A DNA stretch of 41,000 bases from Comamonadaceae bacterium (GCA_947447405.1 CANFKQ010000002.1:1-41000), one strand, 5' to 3'. Numbered from the stretch's first letter, positions 6,088-34,584 are shown. Numbers and translations: made by a program. The notes: generated by a model not told the origin, from the sequence alone.

Positions 6088-6098
6088 GGCATGCTCCT

Positions 6099-6992: not shown

Positions 6993-7014
6993 GAAAAAAT
7001 TAGTAGCTCAGAAC

Positions 7015-7866: not shown

Positions 7867-7872
7867 GATGTT

Positions 7873-8322: not shown

Positions 8323-8351
8323 CTTCCCTTAAGAGTTTTTATATTTTTCAA

Positions 8352-8384
8352 CAAAAAAGCTTCGCCGCATCCAAGCGGCGAAGC
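8352..8384 (-). terminator. Rho-independent terminator between dctP-like gene and aroQ
   Basis: Minus-strand CTTCGCCGC-TTGGAT-GCGGCGAAG followed by CTTTTTTG. Confidence 0.85.
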
Positions 8385-8397
8385 GTTACAAAGCCAA

Positions 8398-9420: not shown

Positions 9421-9507
9421 AGTCAGTGTCTCCTGATGAACTTTTTCGGTCGTACGCCCAATGAAGGTCCACTGCCTGGCGTACCCGGACAGACAGTGGA
9501 AAAAAAC

Positions 9508-10785: not shown

Positions 10786-10803
10786 GATTGAATTCCTTGG
10801 GAT

Positions 10804-12960: not shown

Positions 12961-14009
12961 GTCATACCCAAGCGGACTGTTTGTTGACTGGCCGAAGCCT
13001 GCGCAATCGCCTCAACCACCAACAGGTTCTGTAAACCATCCTGCGCACTCACCAAGGGTTCGGCGTGGCCTTGCACCACATCAAGAAAATGGTCCATCTG
13101 CAATTTCAACGGATCATCGCGCTGTAGGTCAACTGCACTGCAATCGAAGGGTTTGAACCATGAACGATCTTCAGGATGGCCATAAGTTTTTAGGCGCATG
13201 GTAGGCACAGCCAAGCTGCCCATGGTGCCTGCAATGACATAACAATCTTCATCGCCATAGTTGGCGTAGGCTTTGTTTTCTTGGCTGGTTTGCTCCCAGC
13301 TGCGAGCAGAGGCGGCTGTGTCTGACAGCATGAAAGACGCCAAGACACCAGACGCAAAACGAAACGTGATGGACGCCGTGTCTTCCACCGCAAAACCGCG
13401 TATCACGTTAGATGTCATAGCCTGCACCTCAGTCATTTCGCCACACAACATACGCAAGTTGTGAATCTCGTGAATGAGGTTGATCAGCACAGGTCCTCCA
13501 CCCACCTCGCGCCGCCAAGGCGCTTCGCTGAAATAGCGATCAGGTTTGTAAAAGATGGCACTGCCCATGACACTGACCAGCTGACCCAAGCGTCCCGCTT
13601 CAATCACAGCTTTGGCTTCACGCATGATGGGGCTGTGGGCGCGGTGATGGCCAATCAACACTTTGGCTTGCGTGGCTTGCGTGGCTTGCACCAGCAGATG
13701 GGCATCAGCCACCGTATGTGCAATAGGTTTCTCCACCAGCACCGGCACACCCGCTTCGATGCACTGCAAAGCTTGCGGCACATGCAAGGCATTGGGCGTA
13801 GCCAGGATCACGCCGTCTGGCGAAGCTGCTGCTAGCAGCGCATCCAACGTGGCGAACCAAGCCACGTCGTGTTCTTTGGCTAAAACTTGCGCGGCCTCAG
13901 ACGGATCAGCAATCGCACAGAGCCGACACTGGGGATTCTGCGCAATCACCGCCATGTGCGCTCGACCAATCACGCCAGCACCAACAACCGCGATGTTGAG
14001 CACAGTCAC
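12894..14009 (-). CDS. Gfo/Idh/MocA-family oxidoreductase
   Basis: NIAVVGAGVIGRAHMAVIAQ Rossmann motif, VLVEKPIAHT (EKP) motif, GGGPVLINLIHEIHNLRMLCG. Confidence 0.93.
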   Translation of the reverse strand: MTVLNIAVVGAGVIGRAHMAVIAQNPQCRLCAIADPSEAAQVLAKEHDVAWFATLDALLAAASPDGVILATPNALHVPQALQCIEAGVPVLVEKPIAHTVADAHLLVQATQATQAKVLIGHHRAHSPIMREAKAVIEAGRLGQLVSVMGSAIFYKPDRYFSEAPWRREVGGGPVLINLIHEIHNLRMLCGEMTEVQAMTSNVIRGFAVEDTASITFRFASGVLASFMLSDTAASARSWEQTSQENKAYANYGDEDCYVIAGTMGSLAVPTMRLKTYGHPEDRSWFKPFDCSAVDLQRDDPLKLQMDHFLDVVQGHAEPLVSAQDGLQNLLVVEAIAQASASQQTVRLGMTHRTTSAMSLRDTANRPACTNR

Positions 14010-14011
14010 GC

Positions 14012-14776
14012 TTAAACAGCAGTGGCTTCAGTGGCTGTGGTCGTGTGCGCCCCCCCCAAGAACAAACGCTCCATTTGTGGATCAGCCAAAATTTCAGCAG
14101 CTGATTTGTACAGCACCAAACGGCCAGACTCCAAAGCAATGGCGTTGTCCGAGTGCTTGAGTGCACTCTTCACGTTTTGCTCCACCATCAGCACCGTCGT
14201 GCCTTGATCCGCCAGCTTACGCAACAGCTTGAACACGTCTTGCACCACCATGGGTGACAGACCAATAGAAGGCTCGTCAATCAACAAAACCTTGGGACGC
14301 AGCAACAAAGCACGGCCAATTTCGAGTTGCTTTTGCTCACCGCCAGAGAGCGAGGATGCCAGTGAGCTCATACGCTCTTTGACGCGCGGGAAAAACTCTA
14401 GCACTTCAGGGATACGTTCGTGCGTGATCTTCATGCCCAGCGTGATACCACCCAACTCTAAGTTTTCATACACCGAGAGTTGGCCAAACAAATTGCGGCC
14501 CTGTGGCACAAAGGCAATACCGCGCGCAAGTAAATCTTTTTGCGTAGCACCGGTGATGTCCTCACCGTTCAAGCGAATCTTGCCTTGGCGCGGTGTAAGC
14601 AAGCCAAACAAGGTTTTGAGCACGGTCGATTTGCCTGCGCCGTTGGGGCCAATCAGCAAAGTGATCGAGCCCTTGGGCACAGTAAATGACAGGTTATTCA
14701 AGATCATGAAATCTTTGTAACCCGCCACCACATCGTCAAACTCGATGCAAGGAGTTGTAGTGTTGTGTGTTGTCAT
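14012..14776 (-). CDS. ABC transporter ATP-binding protein, LivF-type
   Basis: Walker A GPNGAGKS, signature LSGGEQKQLEIGRAL, VLLIDEPSIGLSPMVVQDVF. Confidence 0.95.
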   Translation of the reverse strand: MTTHNTTTPCIEFDDVVAGYKDFMILNNLSFTVPKGSITLLIGPNGAGKSTVLKTLFGLLTPRQGKIRLNGEDITGATQKDLLARGIAFVPQGRNLFGQLSVYENLELGGITLGMKITHERIPEVLEFFPRVKERMSSLASSLSGGEQKQLEIGRALLLRPKVLLIDEPSIGLSPMVVQDVFKLLRKLADQGTTVLMVEQNVKSALKHSDNAIALESGRLVLYKSAAEILADPQMERLFLGGAHTTTATEATAV

Positions 14777-14778
14777 GA

Positions 14779-15537
14779 TCAGCTTCCCAGATAGGCATCA
14801 AGCACTTGTTTGTTGGCGCGAATTTCTTCGGGTGTGCCAATGGCCATGACCTTACCTTCGACCATCACCATGATGCGATGGCAAAGGTCCATCACAAAAT
14901 CCATGTTGTGTTCGATCACCACAAAACTGCCCTTGCGAGTTTTGTTCAAGTCCTTAAGCAAGGTACTGATGCCGCCGACCAGTGAGGGGTTCACACCAGC
15001 GCAAGGTTCATCGAGCAACACCAAGTCTGGCTCGCTCATAAAGGCCATGGCAATGTCCACCAGCTTTTGTTGGCCGTAGCTCAACTCGCCTGCTTTCTTG
15101 TCTGCCACATGCTTGATGTGGAACTGGTCAATCAAGGCATCCGCCTTGGCGCCCAAATCGGAATCACTGGGTGCAAACATGCGGCTAAACATCGTGCCTT
15201 GGTGCTCTTGTGCAGCCACGATCAAGTTGTCGCGTACGGTCATCTTGCCAAACACTTGCAAGGTTTGAAAAGTGCGACCAACGCCAAGTCGGTTGAGCTC
15301 AAGGGGACCCAGTTGGGTCACGTCTTGGCCATTGAGTTCGATCTTGCCGGTATCCGGTGTGATCTGACCCAACATGCTGTTGAACAGTGTTGTTTTACCC
15401 GATCCATTGGGTCCGATGACGCCAAAAATTTCGCCAGGGCGTACCTCGAATGAAACACCACCCACCGCTTGAATCGCACCGTAGGCTTTCTTCAAGTCGG
15501 TGACTTTGAGAACGGGTTGGTTGGTAGATAAGGTCAT
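14779..15537 (-). CDS. ABC transporter ATP-binding protein, LivG-type
   Basis: Walker A GPNGSGKT, LSYGQQKLVDIAMAF, LVLLDEPCAGVNPSLV, DLCHRIMVMVEGKVMAIGTPEEIRAN. Confidence 0.95.
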   Translation of the reverse strand: MTLSTNQPVLKVTDLKKAYGAIQAVGGVSFEVRPGEIFGVIGPNGSGKTTLFNSMLGQITPDTGKIELNGQDVTQLGPLELNRLGVGRTFQTLQVFGKMTVRDNLIVAAQEHQGTMFSRMFAPSDSDLGAKADALIDQFHIKHVADKKAGELSYGQQKLVDIAMAFMSEPDLVLLDEPCAGVNPSLVGGISTLLKDLNKTRKGSFVVIEHNMDFVMDLCHRIMVMVEGKVMAIGTPEEIRANKQVLDAYLGS

Positions 15538-16529
15538 GCTTTCACTCCCTCAGCGGAACGCTGATTCGCATTAGCTGCACGAGCTGCTGATGCTTCACGT
15601 GACAGACGTTTTGCGCGGATGCGGTCTGGAATGCTCAATAAACCATCGGGCAACCAAATCATCAACATCACCACGGCAGTGCCGAATACAAACAAATACC
15701 AAGCCTGAGCAAAGCGTAACCACTCTGGCAAGATCACGCCCACCGCAGCGCCGAGTAAGGGGCCCAAGAAATAACCAGGACCACCCACCACCACCATGAG
15801 GTACATCATGATGGAGGCTTCCACTGTGAACGGTGCAGGGTCGATGAACTGCACCATCGAGCCAAACAACCCACCTGCGATGCCGGCATACGAGGCGCCA
15901 ATGGCAAAGCTCAACAAGGTGTATCCACGAATATCCACACCCAAGCTTTCAGCTCGGATGGGGTTGTCACGCAAGGCTGTAAACGCTTTACCCCAAGGCG
16001 AGTTGAGCAAGCCCCACAGCAACAAACCAAGGACCACAGCAAACGCCAAGACCAAGTAGTAATAGGCCAAGTTACCGTCAAAGCTGATGCCGAAGGCTTC
16101 AGGCCGTGCGATGTTGTTGATACCAAACGTGCCGCCTGTGAGCCACTCTTCGTTGCGCATCACCAACCACACGGCAGTATTAAAGCCGAGTGTGGCAAAG
16201 GCCAAATAAATGGTTTGCACGCGCAGCGCTGGAAAGCCCAAGGCCAAGCCCACCACGAAGCAGCCCAGCGCAGCGAGGGGCATGCCCAACCAAAAGCTAT
16301 AACCCGCTTGCATCATCACCGCCACGGTGTACGCACCAATGCCAAAGAACGCGGCATGGCCGAGTGACTTTTGACCGGCGTAACCAATGGTGAGGTTCAG
16401 ACCCATGGTGGCGATCACATAGATCAGCCAATAGGTGAACAAATAAATGCCGTGGTTTTTGAGCAGAGTGGGCACAAAAATACAGGCCAGCAGCCCTAAG
16501 AGGCCTGCCAATAATGCGAGCTTCTTCAT
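15534..16529 (-). CDS. Branched-chain amino acid-type ABC transporter permease, LivM-type
   Basis: LNLTIGYAGQKSLGHAAFFGIGAYTVAVMM, GKAFTALRDNPIRAESLGVDIRGYTLLSFAIGASYAGIAGGLFG. Confidence 0.95.
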   Translation of the reverse strand: MKKLALLAGLLGLLACIFVPTLLKNHGIYLFTYWLIYVIATMGLNLTIGYAGQKSLGHAAFFGIGAYTVAVMMQAGYSFWLGMPLAALGCFVVGLALGFPALRVQTIYLAFATLGFNTAVWLVMRNEEWLTGGTFGINNIARPEAFGISFDGNLAYYYLVLAFAVVLGLLLWGLLNSPWGKAFTALRDNPIRAESLGVDIRGYTLLSFAIGASYAGIAGGLFGSMVQFIDPAPFTVEASIMMYLMVVVGGPGYFLGPLLGAAVGVILPEWLRFAQAWYLFVFGTAVVMLMIWLPDGLLSIPDRIRAKRLSREASAARAANANQRSAEGVKA

Positions 16530-17401
16530 ACTTTGCGCTCCACTTTCTTACCGAGCAAGCCTTGAGGCTTGAACAAAATCACGACCATGAAAATGATCAA
16601 CGCCACTGCGTCTTTGTACGCAGGCGAAATGTATGCAGCCGCTAAGTTTTCACACACTCCCACAATCAAACCACCCAACAGGGCACCGCGTGAGTTGTTG
16701 AAGCCACCGATGATGGCGGCAAAGAACGCCTTATTACCCAGCGAGGCGCCCATATCGAACTTAGCCAAATAAGTTGGCGTCACCAAAATCGCTGCTGCTG
16801 CTGCCAGCACTGCGTTGATAGCGAAGGTGTAAAAAATCATCCGTGGCACGTTGATGCCCAACACCGAAGCACTCTCCGTGTTTTGTGCCACCGCTTGCAT
16901 GGCACGACCGGTGACGGTCTTTGCCAAGAAGGCTTGCGTGACCAACACGAGTGCAATGGCAAACACAAAGGTGCCAATGTCGGTGGCCGAAATGGTGACA
17001 CCTGCAATGTTGTAAACCTCATCTGGGAACAAATTGGGGAAAGGTTGTGGCTCAGCGCTGTAGCCTGCACGCACAGCGTTGCGTATGGCGATGGACAAAC
17101 CAATGGTGGCCACCACGATGGGCATCATCCCGAACTTAAAGAGTGGGTCCACCACGCCGCGCTTGAACAACCAGCCCAGCACAAAGACCGACAACACACA
17201 ACTCGCGGCAAAGCTCAACATCAACGGGAATCCCGCCGCCATAAAGCCCAGCATCATGAAAGCCGGCAGCATCACAAATTCGCCTTGTGCAAAGTTGATG
17301 GTGCCCGAGGCTTGCCAAAGCAAGGTAAACCCCAAAGCTGCCAGCGCATAAATGCTGCCGGTGGCGAGGCCACTGAAAAAGAGTTGTAGGAAGTCGGTCA
17401 T
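16526..17401 (-). CDS. Branched-chain amino acid-type ABC transporter permease, LivH-type
   Basis: FFSGLATGSIYALAALGFTLLWQASGTINFAQGEFVMLPAFMM, GASLGNKAFFAAIIGGFNNSRGALLGGLIVGVCENLAAAYIS. Confidence 0.95.
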   Translation of the reverse strand: MTDFLQLFFSGLATGSIYALAALGFTLLWQASGTINFAQGEFVMLPAFMMLGFMAAGFPLMLSFAASCVLSVFVLGWLFKRGVVDPLFKFGMMPIVVATIGLSIAIRNAVRAGYSAEPQPFPNLFPDEVYNIAGVTISATDIGTFVFAIALVLVTQAFLAKTVTGRAMQAVAQNTESASVLGINVPRMIFYTFAINAVLAAAAAILVTPTYLAKFDMGASLGNKAFFAAIIGGFNNSRGALLGGLIVGVCENLAAAYISPAYKDAVALIIFMVVILFKPQGLLGKKVERKV

Positions 17402-17414
17402 GCTGTATCTCTAA

Positions 17415-18560
17415 TTACTTCTTCGCGTTCAAAGCAGGCAAGGTCGCTGTCACCACTTGGCGGCCATTTTTCACTTCGATCAAGAAGCTTTCACGATCAA
17501 GATCACCATTGGCATCAAAGCTCACGTCCATGATGACGCCTGGATTTTTCTTAGCACTGATGTTGATGCCGTGCAGTGCTTGCGCCACGGCTTTGCGGTC
17601 GAGCTTGCCCACTTTTTCAATGGCCGCTTTGAGCACGTACACGCCGGTGTAGCCTTTGATGCCGTTGTGGTCAGAGATGCTGCCGTAGGCTTGGTAGTAC
17701 TTGGCCTTGAACTTCAACATTTCTGGGTTGGGTGCATCGACGGTCAAGCCCACGTGGGCGATTGCACCGTTGGCAGCATCGCCTGCCAGCTCAATCACTT
17801 TTTGGCCGGTCAAGGTGGTCTCGCCGATCACGGGCTTGTTCCAGCCTTGCTTCTTCAGCTCGCGCAACAAACGTGCAGATTCTTCTTCGTTGGTGTAAGC
17901 AAAGATCGCGTCGGCATTGCTTTGCTTGGCCTTCAATACAGCGGCTGAAAAGTCAACTTGGCCTGCGTCCGTCGAAATGTCGGCCACCACTTTGGTGGGG
18001 GAGCCATCCAACAACTTAGCTAAGGTGTCACGGCCACCTTTGCCGAAGTCGTTGTTCACATAAATCACAGCCAATGTTTTGGCTTTGGTGTTGATGAACT
18101 TAGCGAGCTTAGGGAATGAGGTGCTTTGACCGAATGCGGTACGAAACACATAAGGGTTGCCCTGTGCTGTGATGGAAGCGGCCTCACCGCCTGTGAAGTT
18201 AGGCACTTCGCCGCGCTTAGATTCAGCCATGGACACCATGATGGAACCCGAGTAGACAGGGCCAAAAATGGCAAACACGCCATCGTCCACAGCCTTTTGG
18301 GTCAAACCCTTGGCCACGCCGGGATTGGTTTGGGTGTCAACGGTGTAGCTCTCGATTTTTTTACCCAAGATGCCGCCGTTGTCGTTGATCTCTTTGACCG
18401 CCAACTCAACACCGTTCTTAAACACCGTACCGGCTGTGGTACCTGGACCGGAGAGCTCAACGATGTTGGCAATCTTCACAGTTTGCTGTGCGTGCGCCAT
18501 GCCAGCCAAGGCAAAAATGGCAGCTGCAGCAACAGCTTTCAAGGTGGAACGTTTATGCAT
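17415..18560 (-). CDS. ABC transporter substrate-binding protein, LivK-type
   Basis: Signal peptide MHKRSTLKAVAAAAIFALAGMAHAQ; KIANIVELSGPGTTAGTVFKNGVELAVKEINDNGGILGKKIE. Confidence 0.95.
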   Translation of the reverse strand: MHKRSTLKAVAAAAIFALAGMAHAQQTVKIANIVELSGPGTTAGTVFKNGVELAVKEINDNGGILGKKIESYTVDTQTNPGVAKGLTQKAVDDGVFAIFGPVYSGSIMVSMAESKRGEVPNFTGGEAASITAQGNPYVFRTAFGQSTSFPKLAKFINTKAKTLAVIYVNNDFGKGGRDTLAKLLDGSPTKVVADISTDAGQVDFSAAVLKAKQSNADAIFAYTNEEESARLLRELKKQGWNKPVIGETTLTGQKVIELAGDAANGAIAHVGLTVDAPNPEMLKFKAKYYQAYGSISDHNGIKGYTGVYVLKAAIEKVGKLDRKAVAQALHGINISAKKNPGVIMDVSFDANGDLDRESFLIEVKNGRQVVTATLPALNAKK

Positions 18561-18764: not shown

Positions 18765-19547
18765 ATGAACACACTTTTCACACAAACCACGGGCATGGAC
18801 AAGAAGGACTGGATCGCGGGTCTGGACAAAGGCCTGGCCATGCTGCAAACCTTTGACGAACACAACCCCCGCTTGACCGCCACGCAAGCGGGCCAACGCT
18901 GTGGGCTGACACGAACTGCTGCGCGTCGCTACTTGTTGACGCTCTTGCATTTGGGTTTTGTCGCTACCGATGGCAAACTGTTTTGGCTCACGCCCAAGGT
19001 CATGCGGCTGGGGCAGTCGTATTTGGAGTCGGCGCGCTTGCCGCGCATCGTGCAGCCCTCGTTGCAACGCTTGGCGATGGGCACACAAGAAATTTCGTTT
19101 GTCGCCGTGCTGGACGATTACGACTTGGTCTACATCGCTCGCAACGGACAAAACCGCAGCATGAACACCAGCTTCGCACTGGGTGCGCGTGTGCCGTGTC
19201 ACCTCACCAGCGCGGGCGTGTTGTTGCTCGCTCTGTTGGGTGAAGAGGCATCGGACGCGTGGTTGGCCCACCATGAGCTCAAAGCCTTCACCTCGCACAC
19301 CATCACCGACACCAAGCGCATGCGTACCGAATTGGCCCGCATCCGTGCGCAAGATTGGGCGTTGTCTGAGCAGCAGCTCGACTTGGCGTATCGCGGAGTG
19401 GCTGTGCCGTTGCGTGACCACAAAGGGAATGTGCAAGGCGCTTTGACGGTGAGCATGCCCATTCAGCATGAAACGTCCAAAGAGGCGGTCAACCGCGTGT
19501 TGCCTGTGTTGCGTGAAGTCGCTCAGAGTTTGCGTCCGTTGATTTGA
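18765..19547 (+). CDS. IclR-family transcriptional regulator, PcaR/PobR-like
   Basis: DWIAGLDKGLAMLQTFDEHNPRLTATQAGQRCGLTRTAARRYLLTLLHLGFV; effector domain YIARNGQNRSMNTSFALGARVPCHLTSAGVLLLA. Start may be 18795 (internal Met). Confidence 0.92.
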   Translation: MNTLFTQTTGMDKKDWIAGLDKGLAMLQTFDEHNPRLTATQAGQRCGLTRTAARRYLLTLLHLGFVATDGKLFWLTPKVMRLGQSYLESARLPRIVQPSLQRLAMGTQEISFVAVLDDYDLVYIARNGQNRSMNTSFALGARVPCHLTSAGVLLLALLGEEASDAWLAHHELKAFTSHTITDTKRMRTELARIRAQDWALSEQQLDLAYRGVAVPLRDHKGNVQGALTVSMPIQHETSKEAVNRVLPVLREVAQSLRPLI

Positions 19548-19680: not shown

Positions 19681-20490
19681 TTAGGCATCGCCTAAAAACT
19701 TCTTGGTTGCGTTAAGACACAGTTCGGCCCATGCTTTGTCGCCCATGAGTTTTGAACGTTCTAGATTCACGATTTCTACGCTCACTGGGAGGTCATGGGG
19801 CAAGGTGGCAAACAAACCTGTCACGTCGATATTGCCTTCACCTGGCAAAAGGCGTTCTTGGCGTGCGGTGTGAATCAACTCTTCGGTCGTGAAGTTCAGG
19901 CCTGCTTGTGCATCGCACATCTGTGCGTAGTGCAACAGCTCGCGTGGGATGGCGGCGATGTCTTGCAAGGTCGTGGTTGAACGACCAAAGTGCAAGGCAT
20001 CCACCAAGACACCAGCATTACTAGGACGACCTGCACGCTCAATCACGCGTGTGGCGGACTTGGCGTCTTTCACGGCAGTCCACGGCATGAATTCCAAATC
20101 AGCGGTCAAACCGTAGGGCAGCATGGCGTCGCACAGCGCAGCGTAGTTATCAACCAAGCGTGATTCATTCGTGTCGTCTGCTGCAACGAGCACAGCTTTG
20201 GCACCCAGGGTTTGACCCATGTTCATCAGTGCAGCATGGTCAGCCACGTTGAACTGTTCACCGATGCGGATGATTTCTAAGTCATACACACCCACGCCGG
20301 TGTCGCGCATCGCCGCGTGGGTTTCGCGCATCACGGCGGCATCTCGAATGAGTGTTTGGTAAGGGGCGCCAGGGCCGTTGGGTTGCACGCGCAAGCCCAC
20401 ATAGGCGTAGCCCAACTCGGCCGCAATACCAACGGCTTGCGGCACTGTGGAGGCGTTGGCTGTCAGATATGCAAGTGAATAGGTACGCAT
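19681..20490 (-). CDS. Sugar phosphate isomerase/epimerase-fold TIM-barrel protein (copy 2)
   Basis: MRTYSLAYLTANASTVPQAVGIAAELGYAYVGLRVQPNGPG, AGVLVDALHFGRS, LPGEGNIDVTGLFATLPHDLPVSVEIVN. The longer ORF-track start (20751) runs out of frame into the neighbouring flavoprotein gene and is unlikely. Confidence 0.85.
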   Translation of the reverse strand: MRTYSLAYLTANASTVPQAVGIAAELGYAYVGLRVQPNGPGAPYQTLIRDAAVMRETHAAMRDTGVGVYDLEIIRIGEQFNVADHAALMNMGQTLGAKAVLVAADDTNESRLVDNYAALCDAMLPYGLTADLEFMPWTAVKDAKSATRVIERAGRPSNAGVLVDALHFGRSTTTLQDIAAIPRELLHYAQMCDAQAGLNFTTEELIHTARQERLLPGEGNIDVTGLFATLPHDLPVSVEIVNLERSKLMGDKAWAELCLNATKKFLGDA

Positions 20491-20510
20491 GGTGTGCAAG
20501 CTTGAGGGGT

Positions 20511-22904
20511 TTACTTCAGTGGCGAGACAGCCGTTGGCATACCAATGGTGGAGACCATGTGGGTGGTCAAGTTGGCGGGGCCACCTTTGGGTGGCCAAAT
20601 GCCTTGAGCCACCGCATCGGCGCGGGCCTTGCTGCGTGCGTCGAGTGTGGGGTAAGCCCAGATGTTGGTAAAGCGAAGCGGTCCATCCAATGCCACCATC
20701 GCGACCACACAGGGTGAAATTTTGTCGCGCGCAGGAATGGCTTGCTCCCACAAATCAATCGTGGGTTGCACACCACCGGGTTTGATGCCATAGGTGCGGA
20801 TTTCGTACACAGGACCGCTGATACCACTCTCAGCACTCGGGCGCACAGGTTTCATCCAAGGGAAGCCTTGGTAGCTGTGTTGCTCCAAACTTTGGAAGAT
20901 GTCGCCACAACCAAAGGGGCTCGCATTGTGTTGGGTGCGGTTGCGTTCGGCTTGCAAAGTAGCCAAGTCATCAAAGCCGCGCAACACAATCATTTGATTG
21001 AGCACACCGATGTCAGTGAACCAACAGCCCAGCAACTCACCTTGGCCTTGCGAAGCAAAGGTTTGCACGTTCGCGGCAGCTTGGGCGGCGGTGCCAAATG
21101 GCAGCGTCATGGTGGCGAGTTCGTAATACATAGGAGAAGTCCTTTTTAAAAATGGATGTTCAGAAGAAGCAAAGTCAGGAGACAAACGCGCTGCGTGGTG
21201 TGCCGCCAAATAACCAAACGTCATGGCGGGACCCAGGGTGATGCCACCACTGGGGTAGTTGCCGCCCATCACGCTGGAGAGGTCATTGCCACCGGCATAT
21301 AAACCGTCAATGGCTTGGCCTTGTGCGTTGAGCACTTGCGCATGCGCGTTGCAACGCAAACCTGCAAACGTGCCCAAGCTGCCTGCCACGATGCGCACAG
21401 CGTAAAACGGACCGTCTTGAATGGGGGCCATGTTCGGATTGGGACCTTCGTGCGTGGCATCACCTTGCACGCGGTTGTAGGCGGTTTGGCCTTTGGCAAA
21501 TTCACCGTCGTAGCCAATGTCGGCTTGTGTGTTGTAGCGCAGCACCGTGTTTTGCAAAGCCACTGCATCGATATTGCAGGCTTGCGCCAACTCAGCCAAG
21601 GTGTTTCCACATTTCAAATAACCATTGGCCAACATGCCGCGCATGGGCACAGGTGCAGGTTTGACCGCCCCCAGACCCCATCGACGGATGAAGCGGTGAT
21701 CAACAACCAACCACGCTTGCACGGGCTCGCCTTCGGGTAAGGCGTGAATCAAACCTTGCATGAAGTCGTGGTACGAGTCAGCCTCGTTCACAAAGCGTTT
21801 TCCAAAGCGGGTAACGGCAATCAGGCCAGGCTTACCGCGTTCAATCAAATGCGGAAAGTATGCGGTTGTGCCGTCTGTTCGAGGCAACAACGATACAGGC
21901 GCCATGGCTGCTGCATGCTTCAAATCTTTCGCGACCACAGCACCCACCGATTCGCCCAACCGCAGACCATCGCCGGTGTTGCCGCGCGAGGCGGCAGAGA
22001 AGTGCTCGTGGCCTGTCGGGTCGTGTGGCAGCAATTGACGCTTGCGCTCGGGGTCGTGTGGAAATCCACCGGTGGCCAACATCACGCCACGCTTGGCGCG
22101 AATGGTGTGCTCGGCGCCGTTGCGCATCACCACAGCCCCCCTCACCTTTTGCACGCCGTCCACGCCTGCTTGTGTGACCAAACGCACCGCAGGGCTGTTG
22201 ACGCGAAGGTCTACGCCTGCATCGAACGCCGACTTGGCCAGACTTGCGACCAAGGCATTGCCATTGACCAACTGCAGACCTCGGCCATGCAAAGCCAAAT
22301 CCAACAGATGTCGCGTGACACGCTTGACCACATGGAAGAACGAACCCCACGAGCGCAAGGCATTGAAAAAGTGACGGATGTCGGTCCCCGATGCAATCCC
22401 CATACCGAGGAAGGTCATTTCGTATAAAGGTGTCTTGAGCTGCTTCACATGTTCGCCCAGTAAGCCACCATTGAAGGGTGCAGCACACAGCGAACGGCCG
22501 CCCAAGGCCGCGTCTTCGGTTTTACCGTGGAAATCGGGAATCAAGTTGCCATCGATGAACTGCAGCGCCGTGTGCGCTTGAAAGAAGCGCACCATACGCG
22601 GACCGTGCGTGAGGAAGGTGCGTGCGCGCGCTTCGTCAAACTGTTCACCCAACTCGTGTCGCAAGTATGAAAGCGGCTTTTCAATCGGTTCGGTGATGCC
22701 CGCTTTGACTGCCAGTGGGTTGCGCGGAATCCACATCCAGCCGCCTGACCAAGCGGTGGTACCGCCGTAGTGCGGGTCCTTTTCCACCACGATGACTTTG
22801 AGCCCGAGATGTGCAGCCGTCACAGCGGTGGACAACGCACCCGCACCTGAGCCCACCACGAGCAAATCGCAGTCCCACTGTGTCGAGGTGCACTGCTGCG
22901 TCAT
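20511..22904 (-). CDS. FAD-dependent oxidoreductase (KstD/fumarate-reductase-like) fused to C-terminal NIPSNAP-like repeats
   Basis: CDLLVVGSGAGALSTAVTAAHLGLKVIVVEKDPHYGGTTAWSGG and MGGNYPSGGITLGPAMTFGYLAA, then MYYELATMTLPFG...CWFTDIGVLNQMIVLRGFDDL and VYEIRTYGIKPGGVQ...FTNIWAYPTLDARSKAR. Confidence 0.9.
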   Translation of the reverse strand: MTQQCTSTQWDCDLLVVGSGAGALSTAVTAAHLGLKVIVVEKDPHYGGTTAWSGGWMWIPRNPLAVKAGITEPIEKPLSYLRHELGEQFDEARARTFLTHGPRMVRFFQAHTALQFIDGNLIPDFHGKTEDAALGGRSLCAAPFNGGLLGEHVKQLKTPLYEMTFLGMGIASGTDIRHFFNALRSWGSFFHVVKRVTRHLLDLALHGRGLQLVNGNALVASLAKSAFDAGVDLRVNSPAVRLVTQAGVDGVQKVRGAVVMRNGAEHTIRAKRGVMLATGGFPHDPERKRQLLPHDPTGHEHFSAASRGNTGDGLRLGESVGAVVAKDLKHAAAMAPVSLLPRTDGTTAYFPHLIERGKPGLIAVTRFGKRFVNEADSYHDFMQGLIHALPEGEPVQAWLVVDHRFIRRWGLGAVKPAPVPMRGMLANGYLKCGNTLAELAQACNIDAVALQNTVLRYNTQADIGYDGEFAKGQTAYNRVQGDATHEGPNPNMAPIQDGPFYAVRIVAGSLGTFAGLRCNAHAQVLNAQGQAIDGLYAGGNDLSSVMGGNYPSGGITLGPAMTFGYLAAHHAARLSPDFASSEHPFLKRTSPMYYELATMTLPFGTAAQAAANVQTFASQGQGELLGCWFTDIGVLNQMIVLRGFDDLATLQAERNRTQHNASPFGCGDIFQSLEQHSYQGFPWMKPVRPSAESGISGPVYEIRTYGIKPGGVQPTIDLWEQAIPARDKISPCVVAMVALDGPLRFTNIWAYPTLDARSKARADAVAQGIWPPKGGPANLTTHMVSTIGMPTAVSPLK

Positions 22905-22907
22905 CGC

Positions 22908-23723
22908 TTAAGCCGCGTAAATAGGTTGCAAACGCACATGACTGGTGCCACGCGCCAACATGGGCGATGCACCACTGGCTGCAGCCAATTGCGCCGCACA
23001 TGACAACAAATCAGGCGCGATCGCCAACATGCGCTCGCGTGTCAGACGCGCCGAAGGGCCCGCCACACTGATGGTGCCCATGGGCAACTGACCGGCCAAA
23101 CCCACAGGGGCAGCAATGGCGTTCAAGCCGGCGGTGTAGGTTTCTTCAGTCAAGCTAAAGCCTTGCTTGCGGGTGTCTTGCAAGACCTTCAAAAACGCTT
23201 TCAAACTCTTGGGCGCGTTGGGGCCAAAGTCTTGTGGTGAACCCAAACCTTGTTGCGAAACCAAAGCCAAAGCATCGTCATCCTTCATGGTGGACAACCA
23301 AGCCAAGCCTGACGACGAGCAGCTCAAGCGAGCAATGCTGCCCATGTCTGGGTCGTAGCGCAGGCCTTGGCGTGCACCTTGGGCGCGGGCGACCCAAGTC
23401 AAACGGTCGCCATCGACAACAGACAAGCGCACCAGCTCGCCAGTTTGTTCGGCCAAGCGGTCCAGCAGGGGTTGAGCTACATCGATGACGCCTGTTTTGC
23501 TGAGGTAGCTCAAACCCAGTGACACCAGTTTGGTGGTCAAGACATATTCACCCATGTCGCGGGTTTGGCGCACATAGCCAAAGCGCACCAGATCGGCCAA
23601 CAGGCGGTGTGCAGCGCTTTTAGGCATATTGAGCTTGTCGGCCAACACAGCCAGCTCGACGCCTTGCCCTTGTTCAGACAAGAGCTCCAAGATGCCCAAA
23701 GTTCTTTCAAGTACGCCGCTCAT
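22908..23723 (-). CDS. IclR-family transcriptional regulator (second copy)
   Basis: MSGVLERTLGILELLSEQGQGVELAVLADKLNMPKSAAHRLLADLVRFGYV. Start chosen at 23723 rather than the ORF-track start at 23849. Confidence 0.93.
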   Translation of the reverse strand: MSGVLERTLGILELLSEQGQGVELAVLADKLNMPKSAAHRLLADLVRFGYVRQTRDMGEYVLTTKLVSLGLSYLSKTGVIDVAQPLLDRLAEQTGELVRLSVVDGDRLTWVARAQGARQGLRYDPDMGSIARLSCSSSGLAWLSTMKDDDALALVSQQGLGSPQDFGPNAPKSLKAFLKVLQDTRKQGFSLTEETYTAGLNAIAAPVGLAGQLPMGTISVAGPSARLTRERMLAIAPDLLSCAAQLAAASGASPMLARGTSHVRLQPIYAA

Positions 23724-23767
23724 AGTGCTGTGTGGAAATGGATGTTGGCCGAACTTTATCATGAAAA

Positions 23768-23800
23768 TTGAATTTGATTCAAAAGTTGAACGTAATTCCA
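23768..23800. promoter_or_regulatory. Two tandem 15-bp palindromic boxes, candidate IclR operators
   Basis: TTGAATTTGATTCAA (23768-23782, perfect 6-bp arms) and TTGAACGTAATTCCA (23786-23800), between divergent iclR and aroE-like starts. Confidence 0.6.
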
Positions 23801-23847
23801 TTTTTAGATAAACTGCGCCACATTCATCCACTTCACTTTGAATCACC

Positions 23848-24642
23848 ATGCTTGAAAACTACAGCGGCGCCACACGCGTTCACGTCATTGTGGGCGACCC
23901 GATTGCCCAAGTGAAATCGCCTTTTGGCGTGACCCAAGCTTTTGAATCGCATGGCCGCGACGCCATCTGCGTTCCCGCCCATGTCGCCCCCGCTGACTTG
24001 ACCAACTGGTGGGCTGGCACCAAACGCGCGCAAAACATCGATGGCCTGATCGTCACCGTGCCCCACAAATTTGCGTGCACTGCGTTTTGCGATGTGCTGT
24101 CTGAGCGCGCCGCCTTTTTGGGCACGGTCAACACTGTGCGTCGCGACGCGCAAGGTCGCTGGCATGGCGATATGTTTGACGGCTTGGGCTATGTGCGCGC
24201 CATGGAAAAAAATGGTTGTGAGTTGAAAAACAAACGCGCATTGCTGGTGGGCGCTGGCGGTGCAGGCTCTGCCATTGCACACAGCTTGGTATTGGCTGGC
24301 GTGAGCGAATTGGCCATCCATGACCCCGACGACCAACGTCGTCAATCACTGATCGACCGCCTCAACAGTTTGAAACTGGGCAAGGTCACCCATGGCAGCC
24401 CGGACCCCACAGGCTTTGATGTCGCCGTCAACGCAACCCCCATCGGCATGAAAGAAGCCGACCCCACACCGATTGACACCACTCAGATTCATGGCAACAT
24501 GTTTGTGGGCTGTGTCATCACCGCCCCCGCCATCACGCCTTTGATTGCAGCGGCACGTGCCAAAGGTTGCAAGACCGTCACAGGCGCCGACATGTTTGCG
24601 CAAGTGCGCGAGCTGATGGTCAACTTCTTGTTGGAGCGGTGA
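23848..24642 (+). CDS. Shikimate/quinate dehydrogenase family protein (AroE-like, copy 2)
   Basis: VIVGDPIAQVKSPFGVTQAFE, LIVTVPHKFA, GDMFDGLGYVRAM, LLVGAGGAGSAIAHSLVLAGV, NATPIGMKEADPTP. Confidence 0.92.
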   Translation: MLENYSGATRVHVIVGDPIAQVKSPFGVTQAFESHGRDAICVPAHVAPADLTNWWAGTKRAQNIDGLIVTVPHKFACTAFCDVLSERAAFLGTVNTVRRDAQGRWHGDMFDGLGYVRAMEKNGCELKNKRALLVGAGGAGSAIAHSLVLAGVSELAIHDPDDQRRQSLIDRLNSLKLGKVTHGSPDPTGFDVAVNATPIGMKEADPTPIDTTQIHGNMFVGCVITAPAITPLIAAARAKGCKTVTGADMFAQVRELMVNFLLER

Positions 24643-24645
24643 GCC

Positions 24646-26421
24646 ATGAGCGATACCTTGCACACCCTTCATCAGCGCATCAATACTGACCTCTCTCAAC
24701 TCAACGACCACGACACTGTGGACTTGGTCGTCATTGGTTCTGGCGGCGCAGGTTTTTCAGCCGCACTCAATGCGGCGATCGACGGCGCACGCGTGTTGCT
24801 GGTCGAACGCATGGCTCATGTGGGTGGCACCACCGCGTTGTCGGCGGCCACCACATGGGTACCCGGTACGAAGCGTGGCTTGGCAGTCAACCCAGACGAC
24901 ACACCTGAACGCGTGGCCACATTCCTCAACCTCGCCGTGGGCGATCGCTCAGATGCCAAGTTGCGCCAATCGTTCATTGACAACGGACCACACGCCATTG
25001 CCAAACTCGAAGCCCACAGCGCGCTGCAATTTCAAGTGCGCATGTTGCACCCCGACTATTTGTCTGAACTCGAAGGCTCGGTGTTGCGTGGCCGCGCGAT
25101 TGAGCCGCAGCCCTTTGATGGCAAATTGCTTGGCCCCAACCTGCCCCTCGTGCGCAACCCCATCCCCGAGTTCACCGTGCTCGGCGGCATGATGGTGGAC
25201 CGCGACGACATCTTCCATTTGCTGCGTTTGACAGAGACTTGGAAGTCGTTCAGCTATAGCGTGCGCATCATCGTGCGCCATTTCCTCGACAAACTGCTGC
25301 ACCCACGCAGCACGCGTTGGGTCATGGGCAACGCCATGATTGCGCGCATGCTCTACAGCTATATCCAACGTCAAGGCCTGCTGGTGACGAACACCGAAGC
25401 CACACAACTCTTGCAAGACGGCAACACCATTCAAGGCGTGGCCCTGCAACAAACCTTGCCTGATGGCAGCGTGGTCAAACGCACGGTGCACAGCAAAGGT
25501 GGCGTGGTCATGGCCAGCGGTGGTTTCAACCGACACCCGACACGTCGCGCCGATTTGTTGCCAGGTGCGAAAGAGGCATGGTGCCCCGCAGGCCCCGGTC
25601 ACACAGGCAAAGCACAAGACTTGGCCCTGCAAGCTGGTGCTCAACTGGGCAGCGGTGGTTTGAGCCACGCGTTTTGGGCACCTGTGTCCATGCGTCAACG
25701 CGCCGATGGCAGCACCGCCGTCTTCCCACACTTTGTGATGGACCGCGGCAAGCCCGGCATGCTCACCGTGGACAGCCAAGGTCAACGCTACGTGAACGAA
25801 TCCACCTCGTACCACTTGTTTGGCATTGCCATGCAAGCACACCATGCCACCACGCCCAGCGTGCCATCGTGGTTGGTGTGTGATGCGGGCGCCTTGAAGC
25901 GCTATGGCATCGGCATGGTTCGCCCAGGTGGCAAAGGCTTGGCGCCGTTCTTGGCTGATGGTTATTTGAAACAAGGCCATACCTTGGTCGAGTTGGCGCA
26001 ACAACTGAATGTGCCCGCTGACAAACTCCAAGCCACCATCGAACGCTTCAATGCTTTGGCCGACAAAGGCGTCGATGAAGACTTCCAACGCGGCACCACC
26101 GACTACCAACGCGCCAATGGCGACGCCACATGGCATGGACCCAACCCCTGCTTGGGCGCGTTGCGCGAAGGCCCGTTCTACGCCGTGGCCCTCTACCCTG
26201 GAGACATTGGTGCGGCCACTGGCTTGGTCACCGATGGCGATGCGCGTGTGCTCAACGCGCAGGGCCAAGTCATTGACGGCTTGTACGCCTGCGGCAACGA
26301 CATGCACTCCATCATGGGTGGCATTTATCCAGCGCCTGGGATTACCATCGGGCCCGGTGTCACATTTGGCTACTTGGCAGCCAAGCATGCAGTGGCACGG
26401 GCCCATCAGATCCAGACATAA
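24646..26421 (+). CDS. FAD-dependent oxidoreductase (KstD/fumarate-reductase flavoprotein family)
   Basis: VDLVVIGSGGAGFSAALNAAIDGARVLLVERMAHVGGTTALSAATTWVPG; MGGIYPAPGITIGPGVTFGYLAAKHAV. Confidence 0.93.
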   Translation: MSDTLHTLHQRINTDLSQLNDHDTVDLVVIGSGGAGFSAALNAAIDGARVLLVERMAHVGGTTALSAATTWVPGTKRGLAVNPDDTPERVATFLNLAVGDRSDAKLRQSFIDNGPHAIAKLEAHSALQFQVRMLHPDYLSELEGSVLRGRAIEPQPFDGKLLGPNLPLVRNPIPEFTVLGGMMVDRDDIFHLLRLTETWKSFSYSVRIIVRHFLDKLLHPRSTRWVMGNAMIARMLYSYIQRQGLLVTNTEATQLLQDGNTIQGVALQQTLPDGSVVKRTVHSKGGVVMASGGFNRHPTRRADLLPGAKEAWCPAGPGHTGKAQDLALQAGAQLGSGGLSHAFWAPVSMRQRADGSTAVFPHFVMDRGKPGMLTVDSQGQRYVNESTSYHLFGIAMQAHHATTPSVPSWLVCDAGALKRYGIGMVRPGGKGLAPFLADGYLKQGHTLVELAQQLNVPADKLQATIERFNALADKGVDEDFQRGTTDYQRANGDATWHGPNPCLGALREGPFYAVALYPGDIGAATGLVTDGDARVLNAQGQVIDGLYACGNDMHSIMGGIYPAPGITIGPGVTFGYLAAKHAVARAHQIQT

Positions 26422-26427
26422 ACTGAG

Positions 26428-27822
26428 ATGACTACACGCACAGAACACGACTCGTTAGGTGGCATTGAGGTGCCAGCAGAAAGGCTTTGGGGCGCGCAAA
26501 CTCAGCGATCTTTTGAGCACTTTCACATCTCTTGCGAGTTGATGCCTTCTGAAGTCGTGCACGCCCTCGCACGTGTCAAAGCTGTCTGCGCCACGGTCAA
26601 TGGCGAACTGGGATTGCTGGCAAAACCCAAAGCCCATGCCATTGCGACAGCCGCCGAAGAAGTGATGTCAGGCCTGCATGCCAAAGAGTTCCCTCTGTCG
26701 GTTTGGCAAACAGGCTCTGGCACCCAAAGCCATATGAACATGAACGAGGTGTTGGCCAACCGTGCGAGTGAATTGCTGGGTGGACCGCGCGGACGCGAGC
26801 GCCTGATTCACCCCAATGACGATGTGAATCTGGGGCAGTCTTCGAATGATATTTTTCCGACCGCCATGCATGTCGCGGCCGTCACGGAAATAGCCAAACA
26901 TTTGCTGCCCAACTTGATGCGTTTGACACAAACCTTGCGTGAAAAATCTGAAGCGTTTCATGACATTTACAAAATCGGACGAACCCATTTACAAGATGCC
27001 ACCCCACTCACCTTGGGGCAAGAAATGTCTGGTTACGTGGCACAGCTGGAACATGCCGCGTCATGCATCGCGCACGCCCTGACATCCATTTACCCCTTGG
27101 CCGTCGGCGGAACGGCGGTTGGCACGGGTCTCAACACCCACCCTGAATTTGGTGAACGCGTGGCGGCGGCTTTGGCGCAATCCACAGGCCTGCCGTTTGT
27201 GAGTGCGTCCAACAAATTTGCAGCGCTCGCGGCGCATGACGGCCTCGTGGCTGTCCACGCCACTTTGAAGGTGCTTGCAGTTGCCTTGATGAAAATCGCC
27301 AATGACATCCGTTGGCTGGCATCTGGGCCACGTTGCGGTCTGGGTGAAATCAGCCTACCGGAAAACGAACCCGGCAGTTCAATCATGCCGGGCAAAGTCA
27401 ACCCCACCCAATCCGAGGCCATCGCCATGCTGGCCTGCCAAGTGATGGGCAACGATGTAGCCATCAGCATGGGGGGCGCTTCTGGAAATTTTGAGCTGAA
27501 TGTTTACAAACCGTTGATGGCCCACAACGTCATGCAAAGCGTGCGTCTGCTCACCGATGGCATGTGCAGCTTTGACACACATTGCGCGCGTGGCATCGAG
27601 CCCCAACGTGAACGGATTGCAGAACTCATGCATCGTTCGCTGATACTGGTGACGGCCTTGGTGCCACACATTGGCTATGACCGCGCCGCTCAAATCGCCA
27701 AACAAGCCCAGCGCGAAGGCACCACCTTGAAAGCAGCCGCCTTGGCCTTGGGCTTCGTGTCTGCGCAAGATTTCGACCGCTGGGTCAAGCCAGAAAATAT
27801 GATTGGCAATCAAAAACAATAG
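26428..27822 (+). CDS. fumC: Class II fumarate hydratase
   Basis: [42 protein letters not shown], signature [16 protein letters not shown]. Confidence 0.94.
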
Positions 27823-28628: not shown

Positions 28629-29585
28629 TCAAGCGTTGAGTTGCAACTCCAAGTCATGCAGCACTTTGTAGCAAGGCAACACTTGAGCGACGCTGGAGTT
28701 GGGCTCGCGACCTTCTTTGATAGCAGAGAAGAATTCACGGTCTTGCAACTCGATGCCGTTCATGGACACCGCCACTTTGGACACATCGATTTGTTCTTCT
28801 TTGCCGGTGTAGAGGTCGTCGTAACGGGCCAAGTAAGTACCGGTGTCACCGATGTAACGGAAGTAAGTGCCCAAGGGGCCATCGTTGTTGAACGACAAGC
28901 TCAAGGTACAAATCGCCCCGTTGGCAGCTTGCAATTGAATACTCATGTCCATCGCAATACCCAATGCCGGATGGATAGGGCCTTGCACCGCATTGGCTTT
29001 GACGATAGGGCTGCCTGCTTGGTATGCAAACAAATCCACCGTGTGGGCAGCGTGGTGCCACAGCAAGTGGTCGGTCCAGCTACGGGCTTGGCCCAGCGCG
29101 TTCATGTTGGTGCGGCGGAAGAAGTAGGTTTGTACATCCATTTGCTGAATGTTGAATTCGCCCGCTTTGATTTTGTTGTGTACCCATTGGTGGCTGGGGT
29201 TGAAGCGACGGGTGTGACCGCACATCGCAACCAAGCCTTTTTCTTTGGCCACGCGCACCACTTCGTCAGCATCTTTCCAGCTGTCGGCCAAGGGAATTTC
29301 CACTTGCACGTGCTTGCCTGCTTTCAAGCAAGCCAAGCTTTGTGCAGCATGCATCTGTGTAGGTGTGCACAAGATAACGGCATCGACTTCAGGCAAGGCC
29401 AAGCTGTCTGCCAAGTCGGTGGTGACGTGATGGATGCCGTACTTGCCCGCGACTTCTTTCGTTTTTTCCAAATCACGGCTGATCAATGACACAACTTCGA
29501 CGCCATCGATGTTTTTGATGCCGTCCAAGTGTTTGATGCCGAAAGCACCTGCGCCCGCCAAGGCGACTTTGATGGTTTTGCTCAT
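28629..29585 (-). CDS. ligC: 4-carboxy-2-hydroxymuconate-6-semialdehyde dehydrogenase (LigC/PmdC-like)
   Basis: Gfo/Idh-like VALAGAGAFGIKHLDGIKNIDGVEVVSLISRDLEKTKEVAGKYGI; operon context with ligAB and ligI. Confidence 0.88.
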   Translation of the reverse strand: MSKTIKVALAGAGAFGIKHLDGIKNIDGVEVVSLISRDLEKTKEVAGKYGIHHVTTDLADSLALPEVDAVILCTPTQMHAAQSLACLKAGKHVQVEIPLADSWKDADEVVRVAKEKGLVAMCGHTRRFNPSHQWVHNKIKAGEFNIQQMDVQTYFFRRTNMNALGQARSWTDHLLWHHAAHTVDLFAYQAGSPIVKANAVQGPIHPALGIAMDMSIQLQAANGAICTLSLSFNNDGPLGTYFRYIGDTGTYLARYDDLYTGKEEQIDVSKVAVSMNGIELQDREFFSAIKEGREPNSSVAQVLPCYKVLHDLELQLNA

Positions 29586-29636
29586 GTTTTTTTACTCCAG
29601 TTGAGGACAGAGCTGAAGGTCTGTCCCGCAAAGTTA

Positions 29637-30954
<1,318 letters not shown>

Positions 30955-30955
<1 letters not shown>

Positions 30956-31872
30956 TAAAAAGTCTCCTCTGGCCAGTAAAGGCGCATCGGGTTGTCCACC
31001 AACAACTTGCGTTGCTGTTCTGCGGTGGTCGCGATGTGCGGGATGAAATCAACCAGCAGGCCATCATCGGGCATGTGGTCTTTGAGGTTGGGGTGCGGCC
31101 AATCGGTGCCCCAAATCACGCGATCGGGGAACTCGTCCACGATGCGCTTGGCAAAGGGAATCACGTCTTGATAAGCGTTTTGCTCGCCGTTCAAAGCCTT
31201 GGGGCCTGCGACTGACAAACGTTCAGGGCAAGTCACCTTGCTCCACACATTTTTGTGTTCGCGCATGAACTTCACAAACAACTCAAATTCGGGGCCATCC
31301 ACAGGCTTGGTCACATCAGGACGGCCCATGTGGTCCACCACCACGTTGGTCGGCAAAGCGGTGAAGAAGTCCCACAACTCAGGCAAGTCCACGGCTTCAA
31401 AGTAAATCACCACATGCCAGCCAAAGAGCTGGATGCGTTTGGCGATTTCAAGCAATTCGTCTTTCGGTGTGAAGTCCACCAAGCGCTTCACGAAATTAAA
31501 GCGAACACCGCGCACGCCTGCGTCGTGCATGGCTTGCAACTCTTCATCGGTCACGCTGCGCTTGACAGTGGCCACGCCACGCGCTTTGCCGCCAGAGCTG
31601 ACCAAGGCATCCACCATGGCACGGTTGTCTGCACCGTGACATGTGGCTTGCACCACCACATTGCGCGCAAAACCGAGGTGGTCGCGCAAGGCATACAACT
31701 GAGCCTTCGATGCGTCGCACGGTGTGTACTTGCGTTCCGGTGCGTAAGGGAACTCGTTGCCAGGGCCAAACACATGGCAGTGGGCATCGACTGCACCTGC
31801 AGGCAATTTGAATTTAGGCTTGCTGGGGCCGGTGTACCAGTCCATCCAGCCGGGGGTCTTTTGAAACTCCAT
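30955..31872 (-). CDS. ligI: 2-pyrone-4,6-dicarboxylate lactonase
   Basis: GAVDAHCHVFGPGNEFPYAPERKYTPCDA, VWSKVTCPERLS and RVIWGTDWPHPNLKDHMPDDG (amidohydrolase family, LigI-like). Confidence 0.93.
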
Positions 31873-31889
31873 GTTGTTCCTCTTTGTTT

Positions 31890-32864
31890 TTAATCAGGTT
31901 GAATGTTGGCTTCGCGCACCAGCTTGGCATAGCGCAGGCGTTCGGAGCGAATCAAGTGAGTGAACATTTCGGCACTGCCGGGCACCACTTCGCCGCCCAC
32001 CGCATTCATGCGCTCGCGCACGTCTTTGGTTTGCAAGGCTTTTTGCACTTCGGTATGGAGCTTGTTCACGATGGGTTTTGGAGTGGCCGCAGGAGCGACC
32101 AAGCCGTACCACACCGAGGCTTCAAAACCGGCAAAGCCAGATTCAGCAATGGTGGGTACCTCAGGAAAGATGGCGCTGCGGTTGGGACTGAGCACTGCCA
32201 ACACTTTGAGCTTGCCACTCTTGACATGTGGCAACACCTCAAGCGCATTCACTGCCACCAAAGGCAACTGGCCGCCAATCACATCGGTGATGGCGGGTGT
32301 GCCGCCACGGTAAGGAATGTGTTGCAAATCAATGCCAGCTGCGCGCGCAAACAACTCAATCGCCATGTGGGGTGTGGAGCCGTTGCCAGGGCTACCAAAT
32401 GCGATGCTGTTGGGTTTGCCTTTCGCGGCGTCAATCAATTGTTTGATGTTGGTGTACGGCGCATTGGGGTTGGCTGCAATCACCACTGGCACACGACCAA
32501 TGAGTGAAACCGCCACCAAATCGCGCTCGGCATCAAATGGTGCGGGCTGATACAGCGACATGTTGGCGGCCAAGGCATTGGCCGCCAACAACAAAGTGTA
32601 ACCATCGGATTCTGCTGTGACCACCGACTTCACAGCAATGTTAGTACCTGCACCTGGTTTGTTTTCCACCACAACAGGCTGGCCCATGCTGGTCGAGAGG
32701 CTTTGGCCGATGGTACGTGCCACCACGTCCACAGCACCCCCTGCGGCATAGCCCACCACAACCTTGATCGGTTTGGTGGGGTAGTTTTGGGCGAGCGACA
32801 AAGTCGCCACACAAGAGGTCAACAGAATCAAACTCAAACGTTTCAACATGGTGGTCGTCCTCAC
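31890..32864 (-). CDS. Bug/TctC-family tripartite tricarboxylate transporter substrate-binding protein
   Basis: Signal peptide; YPTKPIKVVVGYAAGGAVDVVARTIGQSLSTSMGQPVVVENKPGAGTNIA. Confidence 0.95.
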   Translation of the reverse strand: MRTTTMLKRLSLILLTSCVATLSLAQNYPTKPIKVVVGYAAGGAVDVVARTIGQSLSTSMGQPVVVENKPGAGTNIAVKSVVTAESDGYTLLLAANALAANMSLYQPAPFDAERDLVAVSLIGRVPVVIAANPNAPYTNIKQLIDAAKGKPNSIAFGSPGNGSTPHMAIELFARAAGIDLQHIPYRGGTPAITDVIGGQLPLVAVNALEVLPHVKSGKLKVLAVLSPNRSAIFPEVPTIAESGFAGFEASVWYGLVAPAATPKPIVNKLHTEVQKALQTKDVRERMNAVGGEVVPGSAEMFTHLIRSERLRYAKLVREANIQPD

Positions 32865-32866
32865 AA

Positions 32867-33868: not shown

Positions 33869-33879
33869 AGTCGTCGAAA

Positions 33880-34563: not shown

Positions 34564-34584
34564 AAAAGTCTCCTGAAAATTGAA

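Follow-up and report, generated by a model that had tools for sequence, protein, structure and literature searches.

The window, a stretch of 41 kb, is a whole contig of a 2.2-Mb genome (84% complete) from a freshwater bacterium of the Limnohabitans type. Positions 19681 to 26421 carry a divergent gene module centred on a regulator. The minus strand encodes an IclR-family regulator (22908-23723; PF01614/PF09339), a KstD-type flavoprotein and candidate ring desaturase designated FAD_A (21171-22904; PF00890, 8e-94; NCBIfam NF004789), a tandem dimeric alpha/beta-barrel NIPSNAP part (20511-21134; PF07978, in two stretches), and a TIM-barrel protein of the AP_endonuc_2 family (19681-20490; Pfam PF01261). 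The NIPSNAP part forms the tail of FAD_A in a single fused open reading frame (20511-22904) that begins with the FAD_binding_2 domain. The plus strand encodes AroE_b, a catabolic AroE-type protein and candidate ring-hydroxyl dehydrogenase (23848-24642; PF08501), followed by a second KstD-type flavoprotein with an FAD_binding_2 domain, FAD_B (24646-26421; NCBIfam NF009477). The real start of the TIM-barrel gene lies near 20490 rather than at 20751. The open reading frame called for IclR extends over 22908-23849; the conserved length of the regulator (270-277 residues) and its sequence place the start at 23723, which leaves a promoter of 124 bp between the two arms.

An earlier note on this DNA had described these genes between a Liv ABC importer and a protocatechuate 4,5-cleavage operon, and both the genes and the flanks were found in place. 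The importer itself occupies 14012-18560, within a minus-strand group that comprises LivKHMGF and a Gfo/Idh/MocA-family dehydrogenase (12894-18560). The ring-cleavage genes, also on the minus strand (28629-35619), comprise ligC, ligB, ligA, a PDC-hydrolase-like gene, ligK and a ligJ-like amidohydrolase gene, with two TctC receptors interspersed among them. A third minus-strand group (5194-11385) specifies a quinate/shikimate dehydratase route, with a split QuiC (N-terminal and HPPD-like parts), AroE_a, AroQ and the TRAP transporter DctPMQ. The three groups are associated with the module and are not part of its core. The earlier note had also counted fumC (26428-27822, plus strand) as a member. 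This assignment was rejected: FumC is the only class II fumarase of the genome and was present in 1 of 49 loci, that one from a close relative, indicating that it is a neighbour of the module.

Three further features of the window were recorded. The QuiC-type dehydroshikimate dehydratase at 5194-6992 is encoded by two adjacent genes, for a TIM domain and an HPPD-like domain; the usual form is one two-domain protein, and many Comamonadaceae show the same split. An orphan class III extradiol dioxygenase, LigB-like (2004-2840; NF009901, 522 bits versus a cut-off of 290), adjoins rpoD, is divergent from a LysR regulator and lies apart from the lig operon. An IclR protein resembling PcaR/PcaU/PobR (18765-19547; 271.7 bits versus a cut-off of 284.75) is divergent from the Liv importer.

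The operator and the conservation of the module

The 124-bp promoter contains a putative operator, the 15-bp palindrome RTTCAANNNTTGAAY (ATTCAAAAGTTGAAC), at 23777-23791, 57 bp upstream from AroE_b. It is the single site of the window, where none was found at the Liv, lig or fumC genes. Comparison of 60 loci revealed the exact palindrome in 41 of the 60 divergent promoters, and in 49 if up to one mismatch was allowed, against a background of 10 in 1177 random windows taken from the same loci. In loci in which Gfo was interposed between IclR and AroE_b, the site was detected in 19 of 37 Gfo/AroE_b promoters. Both promoter sets together hold 60 of the 62 sites present in 2.49 Mb of loci, some of which are duplicates of each other. 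The 2.2-Mb genome harbors two exact sites in all, and the one outside the module is not a plausible promoter target, being located inside a glutamate-synthase-like open reading frame. Four genomes of 4.8-5.9 Mb harbor exactly one site each. In G455, which is among these four, the genes for IclR and the TIM-barrel protein have been relocated away from the other module genes, and the site has followed IclR. IclR would govern both arms from this one operator. The site was not found in distant alphaproteobacterial modules and is therefore a feature of the Burkholderiales version.

Co-occurrence was counted in 49 loci from other species, each anchored on NIPSNAP and at least 18 kb in length. FAD_A, IclR and AroE_b were present in all 49 loci, FAD_B and the TIM-barrel protein in 48 each, Gfo/Idh in 30 and LivKHM in 18. 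Orthologues of FAD_B (57-94% identity) were also sought, in samples of 300 genomes from the order and 401 from the family; AroE_b was close to FAD_B in 40 of the 42 loci with FAD_B at 55% identity or more. The earlier note had proposed to look for these genes together in other genomes, and what was found is a near-invariant gene set with a shared operator, which clearly upholds the note on this point. The conservation of the module is beyond chance.

A NIPSNAP profile scan of 85,488 species genomes yielded 382 confirmed relatives. The best 80 of these came from Burkholderiales or from metagenome-assembled genomes bearing Burkholderiales-like loci, and included Limnohabitans, Rhodoferax, Polaromonas, Hydrogenophaga, Malikia and unclassified Comamonadaceae. 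The module is present in Burkholderiales and, in a rearranged version, on alphaproteobacterial plasmids; it spans hundreds of related genomes plus plasmids. An island on a Limimaricola plasmid (locus L119, 4746-15528) contains the whole module together with Gfo and its own TctA, TctB and TctC, and lies near transposition genes, forming a self-contained mobile catabolic unit.

Enzyme families and predicted active sites

FAD_A and FAD_B scored above the cut-offs of their NCBIfam families (850 bits versus 747 for NF004789 and 832 bits versus 758 for NF009477, respectively). The closest solved structure of FAD_A is 7P18, a 3-oxosteroid 1-dehydrogenase, and those of FAD_B, which was aligned to 7P18 and 4C3X, are 3-ketosteroid dehydrogenases. 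The KstD tetrad Y119/Y318/Y487/G491, in the numbering of 4C3X, is kept in full in FAD_B as Y138, Y389, Y561 and G565. In FAD_A, three of the four residues are kept and an invariant Phe replaces Y119. The assignment of both flavoproteins to the KstD type by the earlier note is thus upheld by their sequences, with a full tetrad in FAD_B, and the carbonyl-binding Tyr/Gly pair implies that both would act on ketones. They share the fold, the FAD domain, this pair and the catalytic Tyr with KstD/AcmB (4C3X, 7P18) but differ by their non-steroidal context, by the absence of Y119 from FAD_A, and by scores below the ketosteroid-dehydrogenase cut-offs of NCBIfam (429 bits versus 789, 392 versus 788 and 337 versus 793 for FAD_A, and lower scores for FAD_B).

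In the phylogenetic tree, FAD_A and FAD_B formed two supported clades (100/98 and 98/99), which included the alphaproteobacterial copies; two rows of the tree were read from the wrong strand (para_L010 and para_L013), with no bearing on these clades. Two loci used a different FAD_B lineage. Judged from the tree, FAD_A and FAD_B are separate ancient clades that have been kept together.

In most relatives NIPSNAP is encoded by its own gene (about 208 residues), and it is fused to FAD_A in the genus of the window. The fusion ties NIPSNAP functionally to FAD_A. In two distant genomes, NIPSNAP was found with FAD_A or alone, the TIM-barrel, AroE_b and FAD_B genes not being nearby. The AF2 model of NIPSNAP (pLDDT 93.8) is a tandem dimeric alpha/beta barrel, for which the fold search returned general dimeric alpha/beta-barrel proteins exclusively (TM of about 0.6). 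In paralogous clusters of loci L096, L101, L104 and L114, a FAD_A-like flavoprotein is accompanied by a recurrent protein family (about 260 residues, probably SDR), and several of the clusters also contain a short NIPSNAP-like gene; the pairing of flavoprotein and NIPSNAP may be general.

AroE_b is 35% identical to AroE_a, its closest relative in the genome, which is encoded at 5-8 kb in the quinate cluster beside QuiC and AroQ, and 25-28% identical to two housekeeping AroEs. AroE_b and AroE_a have the motif GDMFDG in common, and both scored below the TIGR00507 cut-off of 200 bits (137 and 138.5 bits, respectively). On this identity and motif, AroE_b belongs with the catabolic, quinate-cluster AroE and not with the housekeeping enzymes. 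Its best structure match and nearest solved relative is 4K28 (2.7e-69, 38% identity), a shikimate dehydrogenase-family protein from P. putida whose entry name records no function. A PIAQVKSP-type N-terminus is common to both proteins, and GDNVDG in 4K28 replaces GDMFDG. Residues K74, D111 and N95, which correspond to the catalytic Lys65-Asp102 pair and Asn86 of shikimate dehydrogenase, were invariant in 25 sequences. The canonical substrate contacts Ser14, Thr101 and Gln244 are missing, being replaced by Val, Phe, and a variable residue or Val, respectively, and this counts against an alicyclic acid as substrate. Since AroE_a lacks Ser14 and Thr101 too, the loss of these two residues is no argument against a substrate of the quinate/shikimate type.

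The TIM-barrel protein (AF2 model, pLDDT 96.4) has as nearest folds Lmo2234 (2G0W, a protein of unknown function), IolI (1I60) and QuiC1 (5HMQ). Residues E133, D164, H167, R210 and E239 are invariant and Q190 is near-invariant. The active site of the dehydratase QsuB consists of R64, E134, D165, H168, Q191, S206, R210 and E239 (PMC7442255), of which E134, D165, H168, Q191, R210 and E239 are matched in the TIM-barrel protein, most of the matched positions being general to the TIM superfamily. With the QuiC model NF042435 (cut-off of 1200 bits), the protein scored 35 bits and the split QuiC-N of the window 151 bits. It is a putative metal-dependent dehydratase or isomerase of a ring ketone.

Ring-cleavage neighbourhoods

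Genes for aromatic-ring cleavage and for the dehydratase route adjoin the module in differing arrangements, with LigABC in 8 and QuiC-N in 5 of the 49 loci. In Limnohabitans, the 4,5-cleavage genes ligABC are found at the FAD_B end of the module in one group and at its TIM-barrel end in another. PcaF, PcaJ, PcaI, PcaR and PobA are encoded beside the module in locus L213, as are QuiC and a 3-oxoadipate:acetyl-CoA transferase (also called acetyltransferase) in Paracoccus. In S. meliloti, pcaGHCD, pcaIJF and the AroQ gene adjoin FAD_B and the TIM-barrel gene. Quinate genes (QuiC, AroQ and catabolic AroE) recur among the neighbours, as do genes for protocatechuate breakdown, some of the 4,5-cleavage and some of the 3,4-cleavage type. 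The common denominator is protocatechuate or its precursor 4-hydroxybenzoate, and the adjoining ring-cleavage genes point to one of these two compounds as the place of entry. The hydroaromatic and protocatechuate theme of the earlier note gains support from repeated, independent neighbourhoods. LigA was detected in 37 of 39 module genomes versus 190 of 362 others of the same sample (p = 3e-8, a value that takes no account of phylogeny), the two module genomes without LigA being incomplete assemblies. Catabolic genes cluster in general, a further caveat.

The earlier note had proposed that the module would bypass or complement the dehydratase route encoded at 5-8 kb. In all 16 module genomes checked, a match of the QuiC type or to the HPPD domain outscored the TIM-barrel protein. 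The module accompanies the QuiC route and does not replace it; it is therefore more likely to handle a different ring acid than to bypass the route for the same one.

Many loci encode additional ring dehydrogenases (Gfo, SDR), and the Gfo gene is often placed within the divergent unit. In locus L133, the Liv set runs directly into aroQ-aroE-quiC, a continuity which suggests that the Liv importer carries hydroaromatic or aromatic acids.

Proposed function and alternative readings

We propose that the module is a co-regulated funnel that would aromatise hydroxylated cyclohexanecarboxylic acids, fully or partly saturated and akin to quinate and shikimate, to protocatechuate or 4-hydroxybenzoate, a reading to which we give an even chance. 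In an NAD(P)-dependent step, AroE_b would convert a ring hydroxyl into a ketone. FAD_A and FAD_B would each remove two hydrogens beside the ketone, tautomerisation then producing the phenol. On rings with additional hydroxyls, the TIM-barrel protein would dehydrate or isomerise the ketone, NIPSNAP would act as a helper of FAD_A, perhaps as a tautomerase, and IclR would control both arms via the one operator. One alcohol dehydrogenation and two desaturations remove six electrons, as required for conversion of a hydroxycyclohexanecarboxylate into a hydroxybenzoate; for instance, 3,4-dihydroxycyclohexanecarboxylate (C7H12O4) minus 6 H gives protocatechuate (C7H6O4). The Gfo and SDR dehydrogenases and the TIM-barrel protein fit a polyhydroxylated ring. 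The electron count and these additional enzymes therefore place the substrate among hydroxylated acids whose ring is fully or partly saturated, a placement that we regard as having roughly equal chances of being right and wrong. It counts against this proposal that some modules are mobile islands without adjoining ring-cleavage genes, and that flavoproteins of the KstD type are active on steroids and other ketones as well. In the interpretation of the earlier note, co-occurrence, the KstD type and the hydroaromatic theme have stood, and the membership of fumC has not.

The fold of the TIM-barrel protein, which is as near to the inosose isomerase IolI as to the dehydratase QuiC1, also counts against an alicyclic acid and would suit catabolism of an inositol-type cyclitol. 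Gfo/Idh and AroE_b would then oxidise a carbocyclic polyol devoid of a carboxylate, the TIM-barrel protein would isomerise an inosose like IolI, and the flavoproteins would dehydrogenate the ketone, giving a trihydroxybenzene. Gfo lies within the module or close to it in 30 of the 49 loci, with sugar and inositol dehydrogenases as its best structures, and a related FAD_B on S. meliloti pRM41A is located beside an intradiol dioxygenase, an annotated maleylacetate reductase and iolG. However, AroE_b falls with the AroE of the quinate cluster and, of the two serines that bind the carboxylate, retains one, the ring-cleavage neighbours in Burkholderiales are of the protocatechuate and not of the hydroxyquinol type, and no iolBCDE set was seen adjoining the module. 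We consider a cyclitol substrate unlikely. Degradation of a terpenoid, a steroid or another larger alicyclic ketone by true KstD-like enzymes would account for the closest solved structures and for the full tetrad of FAD_B, but this is quite unlikely in view of the missed ketosteroid-dehydrogenase cut-offs, of partners of the AroE family that are unlike those of steroid pathways, and of the loci inspected, where no steroid-type gene set was found beside the module among the neighbours identified.

The route to gallate put forward in the earlier note starts from dehydroshikimate or dehydroquinate: a flavoprotein would desaturate 3-dehydroshikimate at C4-C5, and the product would tautomerise to gallate. 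The balance works (C7H8O5 minus 2 H gives C7H6O5), quinate genes often adjoin the module, and LigB-like extradiol dioxygenases are encoded in the window. One flavoprotein would suffice for this route, though, leaving the TIM-barrel protein, Gfo and NIPSNAP unneeded. Moreover, LigAB of the window scored far above the cut-off as a protocatechuate dioxygenase but below that for gallate dioxygenase, and the neighbours in other classes are genes for protocatechuate or 4-hydroxybenzoate. We consider gallate formation quite unlikely.

The proposed aromatisation of hydroxylated ring acids follows the same logic as the route from cyclohexanecarboxylate to 4-hydroxybenzoate (trans-4-hydroxy acid dehydrogenase, ChcC1, ChcC2), which also combines an alcohol dehydrogenase with two KstD-type desaturases. 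Both flavoproteins matched the ChcC2 model over its full length; with the ChcC1 and ChcC2 models (NF053676 and NF053677), FAD_A scored 299 and 488 bits and FAD_B 290 and 425 bits, below the equivalog cut-offs of 1000 and 900 bits. The dehydrogenase of the cyclohexanecarboxylate route is a short-chain dehydrogenase, whereas that of the module is of the AroE type; NIPSNAP, TIM-barrel and IclR proteins are added, and a P450 or hydroxylase arm is absent here. With the quinate/shikimate dehydratase route (QuiC/QsuB, AroQ, catabolic AroE), which often adjoins the module and runs in parallel here and in the module genomes checked, it has in common the AroE subfamily and a TIM barrel resembling QuiC, but it differs by the two ring desaturases and NIPSNAP. 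No description of the module was found in a search confined to the open-access literature (subscription papers lay outside its scope), including that on NIPSNAP-flavoprotein, Limnohabitans aromatic catabolism, Lmo2234 and cyclohexanecarboxylate desaturases; the module appears to be previously undescribed.

If right, this reading would provide a genetically defined route for saturated hydroxylated ring acids, a class of compounds that is served by few known aerobic pathways and forms an alicyclic component of organic matter in plants and waters. Functions would also be assigned to two large families with no annotation beyond 'FAD-dependent oxidoreductase', to a catabolic AroE branch and to a bacterial NIPSNAP protein, and the operator offers a handle for finding the inducer. 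A stronger version, which we hold tentatively and consider rather doubtful, is that of a widespread aerobic pathway, mobile among Beta- and Alphaproteobacteria, that would fully aromatise saturated polyhydroxy-cyclohexanecarboxylates such as dihydroshikimate and 3,4-dihydroxycyclohexanecarboxylate to protocatechuate by means of AroE, two KstD-type desaturases and a NIPSNAP enzyme. Were this true, dissolved organic matter of the alicyclic, carboxyl-rich kind would become accessible to abundant freshwater bacterioplankton.

The cluster on S. meliloti pRM41A (locus L116, 3604-13791), in which a related FAD_B and a TIM-barrel protein are encoded beside a type II dehydroquinate dehydratase and the intradiol dioxygenase, also contains the gene annotated as maleylacetate reductase, an enolase-superfamily protein and a small NIPSNAP; it is possibly a second, different hydroaromatic pathway.
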